Assembly: GCA_030426475.1 (NCBI GenBank)
Contig: JAUHYR010000024.1
Location: 1-34,315, forward strand
Direction: 5' to 3'
Length of the DNA: 34,315 nt
From: Bacteroidia bacterium
GTDB taxonomy: Bacteria; Bacteroidota; Bacteroidia; Flavobacteriales_E; Vicingaceae
The notes under the pieces are model-generated. The model was not told where the DNA came from, made no database searches, and saw only the letters and a list, made by a program, of their open reading frames with translations. The position numbers and the translations under genes were made by a program. Of this stretch, positions 26,010-34,315 are shown piece after piece (positions within the stretch are counted from its first letter, which is position 1; the number at the start of each line of letters is the position of its first letter).

Positions 26010-26942
26010 TTATGCTGTAACCTCAAGTAAATCATTAGTTTTTCTAACCCCTTCTGCACTTGCTTGCATATGGGCTTTTTCGGCATCACTTAGGCTAATT
26101 TCAACGATTTTTTCAATCCCGTTTTTACCTAAAACAACCGGAACTCCAATGCAAATGTCATTTAGTCCATACTCACCTTCCAATAGTGCAGAGCAAGGAA
26201 TCATTTTCTTTTGGTCACAAGCAATTGCTTGAACTAAAGTAGAAACTGCAGCGCCAGGTGCGTACCATGCAGAAGTTCCAAGCAACTTAGTTAATGTTGC
26301 ACCACCAACTTTTGTGTCTTCTTTTACTTGATTTAATCTTTCAGCATTAATAAATTCAGATACTAAAACTCCATTTCTAGTAGCTTTTTCTGTTAACGGA
26401 ACCATACCTGTATCGCTATGACCGCCAATTACCATTCCTGAGATTTCTGAGCCAGGACAGTCTAAAGCTTCAGCTAATCTATATCTAAATCTTGCACTAT
26501 CTAGTGCGCCACCCATTCCTATAATTCTGTTTTTTGGTAATCCTGTAGATTTGTGAACTAAATAGGTCATAGTGTCCATAGGGTTACTCACTACAATTAT
26601 TATAACATTAGGTGAGTGTTTTATTAGGTTTTCACTAACAGTTTTTACAATTCCTGCATTAATTCCAATTAGTTCTTCTCTTGTCATCCCCGGTTTTCTT
26701 GGAATACCGCTCGTAATTACAGCTACATCACTATTAGCTGTTTTAGAATAATCGTTGGTACTTCCTGTAATTTTAGTGTCAAACCCATTAAGGGTTGCAC
26801 ATTGCATTAAATCCATTGCTTTTCCTTCGGCATATCCTTCTTTTATGTCAACTAAAACCACTTCAGAAGCAAAATTTTTCATCGCGATGTATTCAGCACA
26901 ACTAGCGCCTACTGCACCCGCACCTACAACTGTTACTTTCAT
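26010..26942 (-). CDS. mdh: Malate dehydrogenase (LDH-like)
   Basis: MDH interconverts malate and oxaloacetate with NAD in the citric acid cycle. The 310-residue length is typical. Motifs: dinucleotide loop GAGAVG (7-12), NAD-selective Asp32, substrate arginines Arg82 and Arg88 in SGIPRKPGMTREEL, Asn120 in VVSNPMD, the pair Asp148/Arg151 and catalytic His175 in GGHSDTGMVP. No Shine-Dalgarno is seen (leader ends TTCTCTTATC). A terminator follows. Confidence 0.98.
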   Translation of the reverse strand: MKVTVVGAGAVGASCAEYIAMKNFASEVVLVDIKEGYAEGKAMDLMQCATLNGFDTKITGSTNDYSKTANSDVAVITSGIPRKPGMTREELIGINAGIVKTVSENLIKHSPNVIIIVVSNPMDTMTYLVHKSTGLPKNRIIGMGGALDSARFRYRLAEALDCPGSEISGMVIGGHSDTGMVPLTEKATRNGVLVSEFINAERLNQVKEDTKVGGATLTKLLGTSAWYAPGAAVSTLVQAIACDQKKMIPCSALLEGEYGLNDICIGVPVVLGKNGIEKIVEISLSDAEKAHMQASAEGVRKTNDLLEVTA

Positions 26943-27059: not shown

Positions 27060-29006
27060 TTAGTGTTTTATGAATTTATGTACACTAATTTCGCTACCTA
27101 CTATAGTGTTTACAAAATATATGCCAGAATTTAGATTGCCTAAATTATATTGTATATTTCTATTTCCGCCTGATAAGTACTGACTTTCTAAAATTACTCC
27201 CACCACTCTTCCGCTAACATCTGTTATGGTAATATTAACGTCTTCTGACTCTATTAAATCAAAAGCTATATTAATTTGGTTTTTAGCCGGGTTAGGATAA
27301 AGTTTAAAGTCTTTTAACTTATTTATTTCATGTATTGAGTTTGGAATGCAATTTACTGTCACAGTATCGCAATAAGTTGCCTGACATGTGGAAGAACTGT
27401 CCCATATAGTTACACAAACATAGTATAATCCCGGAGCATTATATTGGTGAACAGGAGATTCTTGATTACTTGAATTGCCGTCTCCAAAATTCCATATATA
27501 ATTATAGTTTGGATTAAAAGGGGTTACTGTTGGTATGAAATAGGTGTAGCAAGCAGAGTCAAATGTTGTAAACATAATTTGACAATTACTGGTTCCTCCG
27601 CAATTTGTAATTTGAACCGGATAACATATAGTGTCAGAACATCCTGTTATGTTGTTCCATGCGGTTAAACAAACATTGTAATTACCATTAGCAGAGTAAG
27701 TATGTAAAGGGTTAGCTTGATTACTTGTTCCGCCATCTCCAAAGTTCCAATAATAATACCAACCACTGCCACCAGGTGTAACGCTTGAATAAAAAGATGC
27801 AGTACAGTTTTGAACGGAGTGAGTCCATTGAACATTACATGAAGTGGCTCCGCAATTTACATAAATGCTATCACAATAGTAAGCTTGGCATTGGTTTACG
27901 CTATCTATAATGGATAAGCATACATTATACCAGCCACTTGATGTATATGTGTGTGTCGGAGAAATAATTTGACCATTGGTTGCAACAGTTCCACTCATTG
28001 ATGTTCCATCTCCAAATGTCCATGTATAATAATGATTTAGGTAAGCCGGATAAGAGGTGTAATGATAAAACGTTACTGAGCAGCCATTGTAAAGCGTGTC
28101 TGTAAATAGTGCAGAACAATTTGAGTTGGAGCAATTAGTAATACTAACCGAATAACAAACTGTATCAGCACACCCGGAAAGGTTATTCCAAGCAGTTAAG
28201 CAAACATTATATATACCATTAGAAGAATAGGTATGTGATGGATTAGCCTGTGAACTATAGTTGCCATCTCCAAAATTCCATGAATAATTCCAACCATTAT
28301 TTGATGGATTTACGGTAGATATGAAAGTAGTATTACAATTTTGAGTAGTATGTGTCCAGTTTACAGAACAATTAGAACTTCCACAATTCACATATATACT
28401 ATCACAATAATAAGCTTGGCATTGATTAGCACTGTCAACTATTGATAAACATACATTATACCAGCCACTAGAGCTATAGGTATGGGTTGGGTAAGGGATA
28501 TTTGGATTGCTATTGGGATTTCCGCTTAATGAAGTTCCATCTCCAAATGTCCAATAAAAATAGTATCCCAAGTATGTTGGCCAAGGAGTAGAATAATTAA
28601 AAGTCACACTACAACCATTATGGATGGTATCTACAAAATGTGCTGAGCAATTTGAACTTCCTCCACAGTTTACATAAATACTATCGCAATAGCTATTTTG
28701 GCAAAAAGAACTATCCCACATAGTTAAACACACATTATACCATCCACTGCTGGTATAAGTGTGAGTAGTAACACTTATATTGTTTTGGGATGTTGTGTTA
28801 TTAGCAAATGCACCATCTCCGAAATTATAATTTAAATGAGATGTATGTGTTGGGTTGGTGTTAAAGTGATAAAAATCAACTGTACATCCGTTTGAGAAGT
28901 GTGCAGAGTCGACAAAATATGCACTGCAACTTGTTTGGCTATGTACATTGTAATTACTTAGTAAGCCTATTATGCTTATTATTGTGTAGTAGATAAATTT
29001 TTTCAT
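27060..29006 (-). CDS. Secreted protein with six PKD domains and T9SS sorting domain
   Basis: The 648-residue protein has a signal peptide (about 1-24, cleaved at VHSQ). Six PKD-like domains follow, each with an FGDG motif (residues 62, 154, 245, 331, 422 and 507) and a WYNVCL or IYNVCLT strand, and with conserved Cys pairs, suggesting disulphide-stabilised extracellular domains. The C-terminus (about 563-648) is a type A T9SS sorting domain: LYPNPAKNQINIAFDL, a central ITDVSGRVV and a final VHKFIKH. It should be exported through T9SS and attached or released. Domains 2-3 and 4-5 form a repeated A/B pair (see findings). A plausible adhesin or matrix protein; no catalytic domain is seen. Confidence 0.93.
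   Translation of the reverse strand: MKKFIYYTIISIIGLLSNYNVHSQTSCSAYFVDSAHFSNGCTVDFYHFNTNPTHTSHLNYNFGDGAFANNTTSQNNISVTTHTYTSSGWYNVCLTMWDSSFCQNSYCDSIYVNCGGSSNCSAHFVDTIHNGCSVTFNYSTPWPTYLGYYFYWTFGDGTSLSGNPNSNPNIPYPTHTYSSSGWYNVCLSIVDSANQCQAYYCDSIYVNCGSSNCSVNWTHTTQNCNTTFISTVNPSNNGWNYSWNFGDGNYSSQANPSHTYSSNGIYNVCLTAWNNLSGCADTVCYSVSITNCSNSNCSALFTDTLYNGCSVTFYHYTSYPAYLNHYYTWTFGDGTSMSGTVATNGQIISPTHTYTSSGWYNVCLSIIDSVNQCQAYYCDSIYVNCGATSCNVQWTHSVQNCTASFYSSVTPGGSGWYYYWNFGDGGTSNQANPLHTYSANGNYNVCLTAWNNITGCSDTICYPVQITNCGGTSNCQIMFTTFDSACYTYFIPTVTPFNPNYNYIWNFGDGNSSNQESPVHQYNAPGLYYVCVTIWDSSSTCQATYCDTVTVNCIPNSIHEINKLKDFKLYPNPAKNQINIAFDLIESEDVNITITDVSGRVVGVILESQYLSGGNRNIQYNLGNLNSGIYFVNTIVGSEISVHKFIKH
27597..28658 (-). 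repeat. Tandem duplication of a two-PKD-domain unit
   Basis: FGDG motifs are spaced 91, 86, 91 and 85 residues from domain 2 to 6. Domains 2 and 4 resemble each other, as do 3 and 5. The repeated unit is about 177 residues (531 bases): 28128-28658 and 27597-28127. Strands such as AYYCDSIYVNC and YNVCLTAWNN recur in both. Confidence 0.8.
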
Positions 29007-29264
29007 AGTATTTGTTTTTTTATTTCTATGACAAATCTCACTAAGCTTATCTTATTATTAAAATTAAATATTTTATAAAAACCCTTATTTAAACCTGTGT
29101 AATTTATTTTAAATAATTGATAATTAAAATATTAATTAATTAAAAAATAACTTTTTTAATTTTAATATTGGCTTCAATAATAATCTTTATCAGTTAGTTT
29201 TTTTTATAAAAGTTATTAAACAGGCAACCCTTTTTTAATTTAGTCGTCTTAGAAGTTGTAATGA

Positions 29265-29843
29265 ATGGATTCGTTAGACGAACAACAAGTAAAAGAAATA
29301 GTTAAAGGTTGTGTAAATGGCGACAGAAGATGTCACCAAAAGTTTTACGAATTCTTTTATAGCAAAATGATGGGAGTTTGCTTCCGATACTCAAAAAATT
29401 CGGAAGATGCTAAAGACTTACTTCATGATGCGTTTATGAAGGTTTTCAAATATTTGGAATCCTACAGTTTTGAAGGTTCTTTGGAAGGATGGGTTAGAAG
29501 AATAGTTGTAAATACAGCTATAGATAGGTACAGGAAAAACAAAAAGGCAGTTTTTATATCAGAAGAAGATATTGGAGAATTACCTTTTCAGTTTAAAGAT
29601 TATCAGCCGGGAGCAGTAAGTCAAATTAATGAGAAAGACTTAATGAATGCGGTGCAATCTTTATCTCCGGCCTATCAAGCAGTATTTAACTTATATGCTA
29701 TAGAAGGTTATTCACATAAAGAAATTGCAGAACAACTTGGTATAAGTGAAGGTACATCTAAATCTAATCTTGCAAAAGCCAGAATGAATCTTCAAGGAAT
29801 TATTGATAAATTAATGAGTGTTAAAGATGACACAATTGGATAA
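29265..29843 (+). CDS. ECF-type RNA polymerase sigma factor
   Basis: The 192-residue protein has a sigma-70 region 2 (about 20-95: FYSKMMGVCFRYSKNSEDAKDLLHDAFMKVFKYLESY, then GWVRRIVVNTAIDRYRKNKK) and region 4 (about 128-180: LSPAYQAVFNLYAIEGYSHKEIAEQLGISEGTSKSNLAKARMNLQ), and no region 1 or 3. It is an ECF sigma factor that directs RNA polymerase to a separate regulon. The next gene overlaps its end and encodes a membrane protein with an anti-sigma-like N-terminus, so the pair is probably regulator and sensor. The gap upstream has no obvious promoter match. Confidence 0.95.
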   Translation: MDSLDEQQVKEIVKGCVNGDRRCHQKFYEFFYSKMMGVCFRYSKNSEDAKDLLHDAFMKVFKYLESYSFEGSLEGWVRRIVVNTAIDRYRKNKKAVFISEEDIGELPFQFKDYQPGAVSQINEKDLMNAVQSLSPAYQAVFNLYAIEGYSHKEIAEQLGISEGTSKSNLAKARMNLQGIIDKLMSVKDDTIG

Positions 29844-31077
29844 AATATTAAAAGAGAAGCTTAATAATTTTGAGGTTGAATATAACCCAAATCATTGGGC
29901 TGAAATGGAGAGTATGTTGGATAAAAATCCGGTAAATTCTACTCCAAAAAGTTGGAAAAAGTATTTAGGTTATGCTGCAGGTATAGTATTAGTTACTTCA
30001 GCGGTTGTTTACTTTACTATTGGGAATGATAGCAAAAAGGACAATACAAGTGAAAATAAATCAAAAGTTGAAATAAACGAAAATATTACTCCTGTAAATG
30101 AGACTAATAAAAGTGAAATAGTAGTTAGTGAGAGCAATAAAAGTAATTCAAATGAAACTATAAATACTAATAAAGTAGAGGAAAACTCTGAAGATAAAAT
30201 TATAGAAGCTTCAGAAGATATGAAGGAGAAAAATGAGGAAACCCAATATGGGGATACAAGAAGTAATACTAATTCAGGGAACGAAAACAGAAATGTTAAC
30301 GATCAAGTAGTGTTTTCAATTAATTCAAATAAAAAATCAGTTTGTCAAGGCGAAAAAATTAACTTATCTATTTCAAAAGAATCCGGACCAGATAATGTTA
30401 TTTATAAATGGTATGTAAATAACAGTAATATAGGTACTGGTGAATCATATAGCTACTATCCTCAAGAAATAGGAGAGCAGATAATTTTGGTAGAGGCGGT
30501 TTCTGGAAAATCAACAAATAAGGCAGAAATAAAAATTGACGTTATTGAATTACCTAAATTTGAATTAGAAGTTATTAACCAAGATAGAACTATTGCAAAC
30601 CCATATACTACTATATCTGCTAATAATCCTAATTTAAAATATCAATGGAAATTAAATGGAGAAACAAAAACAGGTGCTAACTTAGTATATGAATTTGAAA
30701 AGAAAGGAAGCTATGATGTAGAAGTTATTGCAACGAATAAAAACTGTAAGTCAGAAAAGCCTGAACTCCTTACAATAACAATTAATTCAAATTTAACTTT
30801 AGCTCCAAATAGTTTTAAACCGGAAATGGGAGCTAATGAAGACCCTGGAAAAACATTTTTCCCAAGAGCTCTGGAAAACTATAATTTACAATTTGAATTA
30901 ATCATAAAAGACATTAGTGGAAATGAGGTATATAGAACCAATGAAAAAACTCCTTGGAATGGGCGACTAAATAATACTGGTGACATGCTACCTGTTGGAA
31001 ATTATTTCTGGATACTAAATGTTACCGACACTAATGGTCAAAATAATTTATATACAAATGTTGTAACACTTCGTTAA
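29827..31077 (+). CDS. Membrane-anchored anti-sigma-like protein with Ig/PKD-like domains and gliding-type C-terminus
   Basis: The frame can start at GTG 29818, but ATG 29827 is preferred (416 residues). It overlaps the sigma gene by 17 bases. Order: a short cytosolic part, TQLDKILKEKLNNFEVEYNPNHWAEMESMLDKNP, of the anti-sigma type seen next to Bacteroidota ECF genes; a membrane helix about 48-66; a long Asn/Glu/Lys/Ser-rich linker; two PKD/Ig-like domains (about 165-325); and a C-terminal domain beginning LAPNSFKPEMGAN and including ELIIKDISGNEVYRTNEKTPWNGRL and LPVGNYFWILNVTDTNG, which matches the gliding-motility-associated (T9SS type B) domain. There is no signal peptide before the membrane helix. 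A terminator follows. Anti-sigma activity is inferred from position and N-terminus. Confidence 0.78.
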   Translation: MTQLDKILKEKLNNFEVEYNPNHWAEMESMLDKNPVNSTPKSWKKYLGYAAGIVLVTSAVVYFTIGNDSKKDNTSENKSKVEINENITPVNETNKSEIVVSESNKSNSNETINTNKVEENSEDKIIEASEDMKEKNEETQYGDTRSNTNSGNENRNVNDQVVFSINSNKKSVCQGEKINLSISKESGPDNVIYKWYVNNSNIGTGESYSYYPQEIGEQIILVEAVSGKSTNKAEIKIDVIELPKFELEVINQDRTIANPYTTISANNPNLKYQWKLNGETKTGANLVYEFEKKGSYDVEVIATNKNCKSEKPELLTITINSNLTLAPNSFKPEMGANEDPGKTFFPRALENYNLQFELIIKDISGNEVYRTNEKTPWNGRLNNTGDMLPVGNYFWILNVTDTNGQNNLYTNVVTLR

Positions 31078-31109
31078 GTAATAAATTTCCCCATATATTA
31101 ATTGTTCAG

Positions 31110-31139
31110 AAGCCGACTTTTTTATAAGTCGGCTTTTTT
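31110..31139 (+). terminator. Intrinsic terminator after the sigma/anti-sigma pair
   Basis: A 10-base-pair stem (31110-31119 with 31126-31135), a short T-rich loop and a T-run through 31139. Confidence 0.9.
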
Positions 31140-31195
31140 AATTATTTGTAAATCATAAAAAAAAGAGATAAATTGGCACTCTTAAATAATTGACT

Positions 31196-33217
31196 ATGAA
31201 GAAATTTAAAGCTTTACTTCTTTTTGGCATCGGGCTAACCACAGCCCTTTATTCTCAGAATAATGTGGGTATAGGAACAAACACGCCCGATCCTACTTCC
31301 GCTTTAGAAGTACAAAGTACCGATAAAGGAATTTTAATACCAAGAACAGATACGAATTCAGTAAATGTTGCATCTGTACCTGGAAATCCTGCCACAGGAT
31401 TATTAATATACCAAAATACGGATAACATATTTTATTACTTTGATGGAGTAAAGTGGACACCAATCGGAGCTGGAGCCTCAGCCGGCCCAACTGGCCCAAC
31501 CGGTCCAGCGGGAGCTAACGGAACAAATGGTGCAACAGGAGCACAAGGTCCAACCGGTCCTGCCGGAGCTAATGGAGCAACTGGCCCTACCGGTCCAACA
31601 GGTCCTACAGGTGTAGCGGGTACTAATGGAGCAACCGGTCCGACTGGTCCTACAGGTTTTGGAGTTGGTCCTACAGGTCCAACTGGTCCTGCGGGAGCTA
31701 ATGGAGCAACCGGTTCGCAAGGTCCTACTGGTCCAACAGGAGCAAATGGAACTAACGGAGCTACTGGAGCTCAAGGTCCGACTGGCCCAACAGGTCCAAC
31801 AGGAGCAAATGGTGCTAATGGAGCAACCGGAGCTCAGGGTCCGACAGGAGCAAATGGTGCACAAGGTCCAACAGGTCCAACCGGAGCTAACGGAACTAAC
31901 GGAGCAACCGGTTCGCAAGGTCCAACCGGAGCAACCGGTCCAACAGGTTCTTTTACAACAAATGCATGGCTAATTTTAGGTAATGCTGGTACAACCCCTG
32001 CAACCAATTTTATTGGAACAACAGATAATCAGTCATTTGTAGTTAGAACAAATAATAATGAAAGAATGAGAGTTTTGAACACTGGTCAGGTTGCAGTAAA
32101 CTCTACAACAACTTTTGCTAATTCTACATTCTTTTCTGCAGCTGGAGGAAATAATAATGCTGTAGATGGAAGCGCAGCAGGTACTGGAGATGCTGTATAT
32201 GGTCAACAAACAGGAACAGGAAATGGTGTAAGAGGATTAACGAATAATACAGGTAGAGGAGTAATTGGAATTCATATTGGTGCTGCCGGTGGCTATGGTG
32301 TTCAAGGGCAGTCAAGTGGAACTACAGCGCTAGGTGTTTTTGGTATTGTTACTAATGCAGCTGGAACCGGAGCAGGTGTGCAAGGACAAACAGCAGGTAA
32401 TGGAGTAGGTGTTGCAGGCTTTAGTACAGGTGCTGCAACTACTGGTCTAGGAGTTTATGGGCAAGCTGCAAACTCTTTAGGTATTGGAGGATTTTTTTAT
32501 AATACTCATGCAAGCGGTACTGGAATTGCAGCAGGAGGTAATAATATAGCTACGGCATACTATTTAACGGCAGGTAGTGGAGGTGCATTTACTGCTAGAG
32601 ATTATGGGGTTTATGCTTTTGCTTACGGTGGTGCAGCTGGTGGTGTTACTGCTGGTGGTTATTTTAGAGATAGCATTAGTGTGGCTATTGATTACTGGGC
32701 TAGAGTAGCATGTAGAAATGCAGGTATTGACCAAAAAATAATTGGTTCTGGAGCAAACTCTACTGTGGTTAATGGTTTAGATAATAAAGAGGTAGTAATG
32801 TTTTCAACAGAGGCACCTGAAATATTGTTTGAAGATTATGGAAAAGCTCAATTAGTAAATGGATATGCCAAGATTACCTTAGACCCTATTTTTTCTAAAA
32901 ATATTACTGTAAACGAAAAACATGAATTAAGAGTATTTATTCAACTTGAAGGTGATTGTAATGGAGTTTATGTAACTAATAAAACTAAAAATGGATTTGA
33001 AGTAAAAGAACTTGCTAATGGAAACTCTAATGTTAGTTTCTCATATCATGTAGTTGCGAATAGAGCGGACAGATATTCTAATGGACAACTATCTTCAAAG
33101 TTTGAGGATATTCGATTCCCTGAGGCTCCTTCAAAGGAAAAAGTAAATTCTGTTACTAAAAAGGAATTAATTCAAGGTCAGCCAATTGAGAATTCTGAAA
33201 TAAAGAAATTGAGATAA
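31196..33217 (+). CDS. Collagen-like repeat secreted protein (first copy)
   Basis: I take the ATG at 31196 (673 residues) rather than the TTG two codons earlier. A signal peptide ([21 protein letters not shown]) is followed by an N-terminal head, [20 protein letters not shown] to WTPIGAGAS, of the type that heads phage-tail-like and Bacteroidota surface proteins. Next come about 50 Gly-X-Y triplets ([12 protein letters not shown]), interrupted once by GFGV, then a Gly/Ala/Thr-rich region that looks like repeated fibre turns, and a C-terminal domain (about 545-640) with [23 protein letters not shown]. Likely a trimeric surface fibre. No sorting domain was recognised. A second copy follows directly. 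Confidence 0.9.
31259..31483 (+). repeat. Direct repeat of the head-domain DNA (partner at 33354-33578)
   Basis: The DNA for the mature N-terminal head is the same length and close to identical in both collagen-like genes, with mostly third-position differences, while the signal peptide DNA just upstream differs. This points to duplication or gene conversion. Confidence 0.85.
31484..31948 (+). repeat. Gly-X-Y collagen-like repeat tract, copy 1
   Basis: A run of 9-base units coding mainly [12 protein letters not shown] and GPA, with one 4-residue interruption (GFGV). Its GC content is higher than the surroundings. Confidence 0.95.
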
Positions 33218-33293: not shown

Positions 33294-34315
33294 ATGAAAA
33301 AAATTAAATTACTTGTTTTATTATGTGGGATGTCTGGTGCTATAATAGCCCAGAATAATGTGGGTATAGGGACGAACACACCCGACCCTACCTCCGCTTT
33401 AGAAGTACAAAGTACCGATAAAGGAGTATTAATACCAAGGACAGATACCAATGCAGTAAATACAGCATCTGCACCCGGAAACCCTGCCACAGGATTGTTA
33501 ATATACCAAAATACGGATAATATATTTTATTACTTTGACGGTGTAAAATGGACACCAATAGGTGCAGGAGCTTCTGCCGGTCCAACTGGCCCAACCGGTC
33601 CTGCCGGAGCAAATGGTGCAACAGGTGTACAAGGTCCAACTGGTCCAGCGGGAGCTAACGGAGCTACCGGTCCTCAAGGTCCAACAGGCCCTACAGGAGC
33701 TGCTGGTACTAATGGAGCAACCGGTCCGACTGGCCCAACTGGTTTTGGAATAGGTCCAACAGGTCCAACTGGCCCTGCTGGCCCAACAGGTGCGAATGGA
33801 GCAGCCGGAGCTACAGGTCCAACAGGCGCAAACGGAGTCACTGGTCCAGCGGGAACTAATGGTGCTACCGGACCTCAAGGCCCTACTGGTCCCACAGGAG
33901 CTAATGGTGCAAACGGAGCAACAGGAGCACAAGGTCCTACCGGCCCTACGGGAAGCTTTACTACCAATGCATGGTTAATTTTAGGAAATGCAGGAACTAC
34001 TCCTGCTACTAATTTTATTGGTACTACTGATGCGCAAGATTTTGTTGTTCGGACAAATAATGTTGAAAGAGCAAGAGTAGAGAGTGCCGGAAGAATTACA
34101 GTAAATTATACTCCGTCTGGTGGGTATGAACAATTTGGAGTTGGAACCACTGGTTCAAATGCGGCAATATTAGCATTTACTAATAGTACCGGAAGTGGTG
34201 CAGCTGCAGGTTTAGGCTTGTATGCTAATGCATCTGGAACCGGAACAAGTGGTTCTGGTTACTTTTTTAATTCAAATGCTTTAAATACTGGTGTTGCTTT
34301 AACATCTTGGCATCA
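33294..34315 (+). CDS. Collagen-like repeat secreted protein (second copy, 3' truncated by window)
   Basis: The frame opens at ATG 33294 and stays open to the window end (340 codons). The signal peptide, [20 protein letters not shown], is unlike that of the first copy, but from the first mature residues on the head ([24 protein letters not shown]...) is almost the same and its DNA is close to identical to 31259-31483. The Gly-X-Y tract is shorter, keeps a GFGI interruption at the same place, and is followed by the shared [21 protein letters not shown]. The next part (after about 260) departs from copy 1. Probably the same kind of surface fibre with a different C-terminal part. Confidence 0.88.
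33579..33953 (+). repeat. Gly-X-Y collagen-like repeat tract, copy 2
   Basis: Same triplet set and same GFG(I) interruption as the tract at 31484-31948, but about 90 bases shorter and in different order. Confidence 0.95.

Follow-up and report, generated by a model that had tools for sequence, protein, structure and literature searches.

Why would a protein that resembles a membrane-anchored anti-sigma factor end in a secretion signal of the type IX secretion system (T9SS)? The question is raised by two overlapping genes in the window, by which we mean the whole 34,315-nucleotide stretch analysed here (contig JAUHYR010000024.1, assembly GCA_030426475.1, a Bacteroidia bacterium of the Vicingaceae). 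The upstream gene encodes a sigma factor, and the product of the downstream gene carries a T9SS type-B C-terminal domain (CTD) at its far end.

The operon and the architecture of its anti-sigma protein

The upstream gene is securely assigned to the ECF sigma factors on the domain matches of its product in Pfam and NCBIfam (Sigma70_r2, E 6e-13; Sigma70_r4_2, E 4e-17; TIGR02937, E 1e-27). The anti-sigma gene starts either at the ATG at 29827 (416 aa) or at a GTG at 29818 (419 aa), so that it overlaps the sigma gene by 17–26 bp depending on the start codon. With the promoter and terminator listed in Table 1, the two genes are predicted to form an autoregulated ECF sigma/anti-sigma operon. A FecR domain was not matched by Pfam in the anti-sigma protein, so that we rejected cell-surface signaling of the FecR/TonB type, and the genes on either side of the pair encode a PKD/type-A CTD protein and a collagen-like protein, with no TonB-dependent receptor. 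Nor does a PorP/SprF gene adjoin the pair among the open reading frames of the window searched with Pfam.

Table 1. Features of the sigma/anti-sigma operon and of the encoded anti-sigma protein, in window coordinates
Feature	Position	Strand	Basis
Promoter of ECF type (GGCAACC-N15-CGTC) for the two genes; autoregulation predicted	29223..29248	+	Exact motif match
ECF sigma factor gene, 192 aa	29265..29843	+	Pfam and NCBIfam matches
Transmembrane anti-sigma-like protein, 416 aa, T9SS type-B CTD at its end	29827..31077	+	
Cytoplasmic N-terminal domain, residues ~1-43, two helices, predicted sigma-binding	29827..29955	+	AlphaFold, conservation
Single transmembrane helix, residues 44-65, N-in/C-out	29956..30021	+	AlphaFold, positive-inside rule
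Disordered polar linker, residues ~66-157	30022..30297	+	pLDDT <50 for 66-156
Ig-like and PKD domains, residues ~161-318	30307..30780	+	Pfam Ig_7, PKD_4; AlphaFold
T9SS type-B C-terminal domain, CHU_C, residues ~325-416	30799..31074	+	PF13585
Rho-independent terminator after the two-gene operon	31108..31137	+	

In the AlphaFold2 model, the anti-sigma protein begins with two helices (residues 3-13 and 21-32), followed by the membrane helix at 44-65, a disordered stretch (66-156, pLDDT <50) that makes up most of a ~97-aa linker, and confidently modeled Ig (162-240) and PKD (247-317) domains and most of the CTD (330-416). The two-helix domain is common to all anti-sigma architectures that we recovered, always with an adjacent ECF gene, and its Trp24 is invariant in alignment A2; these features suggest that it binds the sigma factor. 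Positive residues ahead of the membrane helix give an N-in, C-out topology by the positive-inside rule. The start of the protein does not have the form of a cleavable Sec signal peptide, the hydrophobic helix beginning only at residue 44, behind a charged cytoplasmic domain. We could therefore reject the idea of an ordinary cargo protein placed behind a sigma gene by accident, given the missing signal peptide and the conserved domain ahead of the helix. Among the outer domains, PKD_4 (265-310; 34.7 bits) and CHU_C (PF13585, 343-411; 29.0 bits) both exceeded their Pfam cut-offs of 27, and Ig_7 (166-210) fell slightly under its own. A Foldseek search with the whole model returned generic Ig-fold matches, from which only those to the Aureispira surface protein GhpA, the top match for the Ig-PKD region, were singled out.

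Conservation of the pair and its predicted regulon

A search of 60 related genomes gave full-length matches in most genomes of the same family and in a few other families. The pair and its domain order were present in each of the 28 loci that we examined first and that showed both genes. All have an orthologous sigma gene directly upstream on the same strand, and the longest reading frames overlap by up to 23 bp or are separated by up to 13 bp. Two genomes in which the pair at first seemed absent or weak (G007 and G026) also carry it. Every same-family locus inspected, and about ten other families, have the same pair and domain order, a recurrence that rules out a chance fusion or a misassembly. 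The preliminary description had read positions 29265-31077 as an ECF sigma/anti-sigma pair whose second member is anchored in the membrane without a signal peptide, and had suggested looking for the same domain order beside ECF genes elsewhere; the sigma-domain matches, the recurrent pairing, and the N-in helix at 44-65 agree with that reading, and the domain order does occur elsewhere.

Orthologous sigma factors share a mean identity of 53% and the anti-sigma proteins 27%. Within the latter, conservation is highest in the CTD and lowest in the linker. In 27 homologues the linker measures 91–123 aa, so its length is kept and its sequence is not, which fits a tether. Correlating the presence of the sigma factor with that of the T9SS was uninformative because SprA occurs in 152 of the 158 genomes of the class.

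Upstream of nearly all orthologous sigma genes in the family lies the motif GGCAACC-N14-16-CGTC or a close variant, and class-wide the motif precedes 33/41 sigma genes under relaxed and 24/41 under strict matching (reversed pattern, 0/41), with a minority of genes lacking it. The operon promoter is the only exact match in the window. The whole 2.87-Mb genome has five exact sites (reversed control, none): one before the sigma gene, and four located 18–47 bp before genes for large secreted proteins of 1423, 828, 1218, and 2210 aa, all of which have signal-peptide-like starts and type-B CTDs. CHU_C proteins number about 35 in this genome, a share of its genes that we estimate at roughly 1–2%. At two of the four target sites, the -35 element GGCAACC doubles as the 3' arm of the hairpin that terminates the gene before, and it may therefore be partly coincidental there, which weakens each of these two sites. 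This sharing is seen at L079 6450-6500 and 9015-9065, where the hairpin reads AAGGTTGCTTCGGCAACCTTTTTT.

Across the same-family genomes we tallied 91 motif sites, these four included, of which 20 had no nearby start and 3 lay at sigma genes. The 68 others, each with the start of an open reading frame within 130 bp, preceded signal-peptide-like proteins in 60 cases, and a type-B CTD was found in 33 of the 56 complete downstream proteins, counts that do not represent independent events because the genomes are related to each other. Sites of the reversed pattern were intragenic in 21/22 cases. Some sites in relatives stand before type-A CTD proteins or lipoproteins. From these promoter matches, the regulon of the sigma factor is predicted to consist of T9SS type-B surface proteins, and in the genome of the window it comprises cargo without T9SS machinery. 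With such targets, the cell appears to match the production of these proteins to their export.

One sigma factor with a type-B domain or a PorP/SprF barrel as proposed sensor

A phylogenetic tree of 114 CTDs, built on few columns so that its details are unsure, placed 50 of the 52 anti-sigma CTDs in one group (95/90) apart from cargo, with a single stray cargo domain inside it. In the family of the window, 28 of 29 anti-sigma CTDs carry WNG, as part of WNG..NN.G, where cargo mostly has WDG, and the NN.G extension is found in 23/29 anti-sigma versus 1/62 cargo CTDs. The tree and these sequence features support the anti-sigma CTD as a specialized, old copy, separate from cargo CTDs. We also considered whether it might closely mimic the CTDs of the regulon, an idea left unsupported by its separate clade; regulon CTDs rank high in similarity to it but are intermixed with other cargo. 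The copy in the window has the WNG, strand, and C-terminal blocks, and the 'PNGDGxND' loop usual in type-B CTDs, intact in many homologues, is degenerate (PNSFKPEMGANEDPGK), so this CTD may not be export-competent.

A class-wide search with the sigma profile retrieved 40 loci, in which three anti-sigma builds share one sigma factor and most loci also have the promoter in common. The first build is that of the window (N-terminal domain, helix, linker, Ig/PKD, and type-B CTD), with a further type-B CTD gene alongside in 15/23 loci. The second is a short anti-sigma protein without Ig, PKD, and CTD, followed by a PorP/SprF gene in 8/12 loci (PorP/SprF matches adjoining the short genes, E 3e-63 and 2e-63). 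In the third, from family f12, the N-terminal domain is repeated three to five times, a PorP/SprF barrel is fused at the C-terminus (E 2e-19, 2e-21, and 2e-16), and a CHU_C lipoprotein gene follows the anti-sigma gene. In the sigma tree, the second and third builds each correspond to one clade (99/93 and 100/99, respectively). At five f12 loci (L227, L268, L270, L272, and L276) the repeats stand before the helix, as if several sigma molecules were held.

The proposed sensor thus carries the CTD in some lineages and the receptor of the CTD in others, strong gene-context evidence that the input is the type-B export route. The preliminary description had tied the pair to the T9SS, a link that both the predicted regulon of type-B surface proteins and the specialized, old CTD bear out. 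It had also named homologues that keep the pairing without the domain as evidence that would count against its reading. Such homologues exist in other families, and neither an indispensable CTD nor its exclusive conservation within the pairing holds; the T9SS link survives, since PorP/SprF is adjacent or fused in most of these loci.

The genome of the window carries SprA and 13 PorP/SprF genes. One of the latter (L068, G000:C134:3431-4258) is a clear orthologue of the PorP of the second build (E 3e-140) and a candidate partner for the anti-sigma CTD of the window. A gldJ-like gene (TIGR03524, E 4e-134, slightly under the model cut-off) follows it directly. The PorP protein ends in a two-cysteine tail, CKPKPRRFRTISCPSF, as in its second-build relatives.

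We favor, with somewhat better than even confidence, a Dma-like trans-envelope anti-sigma factor whose outer end is a type-B CTD and which couples the expression of surface proteins to their export through the T9SS and PorP. Coupling of expression to export is strongly supported by the genomics, whereas the signal, its sign, and the topology are what we infer. The N-terminal domain would keep the sigma factor at the inner membrane, and the helix together with the ~100-aa disordered tether would extend the Ig, PKD, and type-B domains toward the outer membrane. There, the CTD may engage SprA and/or a PorP/SprF barrel, competing with or replacing real cargo, and might cross the outer membrane in the protein of the window. 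Occupancy of the export route, relayed along the tether, would then set the amount of free sigma factor, so that the synthesis of cargo and its export are linked in a closed loop. In a simple version, a vacant route would hold the anti-sigma CTD, leaving the sigma factor free and cargo being made, and a cargo-filled route would displace the anti-sigma protein so that the sigma factor is recaptured; the opposite sign would likewise yield a loop. The CTD may sense load or blockage of the system, as the preliminary description suggested. Several observations weigh against the favored model: the degenerate loop of the CTD in the window, the overlap of two target sites with terminator hairpins, the pair's lack of a neighboring PorP/SprF gene, a predicted regulon of cargo and not of machinery, the sites of relatives at type-A CTD or lipoprotein genes, and the sigma genes that lack the motif.

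That description suggested a periplasmic decoy. A reading close to it is that the CTD never leaves the periplasm and, as a decoy, reports that unexported cargo is accumulating there or that the translocon is blocked. The absent signal peptide, the uncleaved helix, the degenerate loop in the CTD of the window, and the distinct clade of anti-sigma CTDs all fit a probe of this sort. We nevertheless consider it rather unlikely, because the tether is kept at around 100 aa and because related proteins, to judge from the PorP/SprF fusions, have one end in the outer membrane. A linker of this length may be enough to bring the CTD to the outer membrane, which makes a trans-envelope protein no less likely than a decoy in the periplasm. 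Length is also compatible with a quite different role, in which the T9SS exports the Ig-PKD-CTD portion to the cell surface. There it would serve as a receptor for a ligand or contact from outside, with the tether passing the binding event on to the sigma factor and the CTD being a mere localization device. The Ig/PKD modules resemble segments of surface adhesins such as Aureispira GhpA, the predicted regulon consists of adhesin-like surface proteins, and Dma proteins have been described as reaching from the outer membrane to the cytosol (PMC13088901), so that we regard such a receptor as a possible, though clearly less probable, explanation. It would require the chain to remain threaded through the outer membrane. 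Moreover, the PorP-adjacent and PorP-fused versions lack Ig/PKD and keep the same sigma factor and promoter, which indicates that the recurrent part is the link between CTD and PorP and not a ligand-binding module.

Finally, with about 35 CHU_C copies in the genome, domain capture would be easy, and an ordinary transmembrane anti-sigma factor could have borrowed its periplasmic domains from surface proteins without any role in the T9SS. We consider this very improbable: no other block of the protein is as well conserved as the CTD, the anti-sigma CTDs form essentially one old clade, other families have the binding partner of the CTD in its place, and the predicted regulon consists of CTD proteins.

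Relation to known systems and neighboring genes

Dma anti-sigma factors are built from an N-terminal domain, a helix, a disordered tether, and a barrel (PMC13088901). As in the window, they occur in Bacteroidota with an adjacent ECF gene, an N-terminal anti-sigma domain, one transmembrane helix, and a long disordered tether; however, their outer end is a beta-barrel, whereas the protein studied here ends in Ig-PKD domains and a T9SS type-B CTD and, having no barrel, is not filed as Dma. The nearest bridge is formed by the PorP/SprF-barrel fusions of f12, and paralogous sigma/anti-sigma pairs found in this analysis carry OMP_b-brl_2 barrels. B. thetaiotaomicron is not known to have a T9SS. The logic proposed here, in which a regulator reads the state of the machine that exports the cargo of its sigma factor, is shared with FlgM, the anti-sigma factor of sigma-28. 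FlgM is soluble and a substrate of the flagellar type III exporter, whereas the protein of the window is anchored in the inner membrane with a type IX signal, and its export is hypothetical.

The nearest precedents for T9SS-linked ECF control are PorA with PorXY-SigP and the SM6 promoters. In P. gingivalis, the cell-surface CTD protein PorA acts upstream of PorXY-SigP via a two-component system, and SigP, activated by PorX, controls machinery genes (PMC7712824). There too a T9SS-CTD protein stands upstream of a T9SS-tied ECF sigma factor, but PorA is a separate protein, and SigP is activated by PorX instead of being held by an operon-encoded anti-sigma factor as proposed here. The F. psychrophilum SM6 promoters precede T9SS genes and the sigma/anti-sigma genes THC0290_1774/1773 (PMC9723704). 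They likewise form a class of ECF promoters whose -10 box is CGT and which cover T9SS genes and a sigma/anti-sigma operon, a likeness drawn from the -10 box and gene content; their gene set includes T9SS machinery (GldN and PorU), unlike the regulon predicted here. Each type-B CTD binds a cognate barrel of the PorP kind (PMC9143113, PMC12618676), as in SprB-SprF and PG1035-PorP (PMC9143113), and these barrels have been described as cognate shuttles (PMC12618676). The protein of the window shares this CTD family and its predicted partner, but the members known so far are cargo proteins bearing Sec signal peptides, whereas here the CTD sits on a regulator whose other end is cytoplasmic.

Searches of the open-licence literature found no anti-sigma factor carrying either a type-B CTD or a PorP/SprF barrel, an absence that is no proof of novelty. 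Apart from PorXY-SigP, no pathway is known by which T9SS bacteria adjust their supply of huge surface adhesins to what can be exported. The pair offers a testable answer across many families of the class, with a single sigma factor and promoter, a regulon of cargo, and a proposed sensor made either from the secretion signal of the cargo or from the partner of that cargo in the outer membrane. The Dma anti-sigma factors, a recently named group, would thereby be extended from barrels to secretion signals, and the promoter motif could be used for sequence-based prediction of surface-protein regulons.

A malate-dehydrogenase-like gene (26010-26942, minus strand) lies near the pair in the window and adjoins it in many relatives (L014, L017, L022-L024, and L026-L031), indicating a conserved neighborhood. 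The divergent neighbor (27060-29006, minus strand) encodes a protein of 648 aa that combines six PKD domains with a type-A T9SS CTD, and on the other side two tandem genes (31190-33217 and 33294-34313, plus strand) encode collagen-like GPT-repeat proteins with an N-terminal stretch in common. The genome also contains a second, paralogous ECF/anti-sigma pair (L305, G000:C58, 1430-3089), whose 381-aa anti-sigma protein has a PKD domain and a weak CHU_C-like end (20.7 bits, under the cut-off). This pair has its own promoter type, TGCAACC-N16-CATCT, and another such site precedes the gene of a 'SHGAAFEITYKHL' surface protein (L354).
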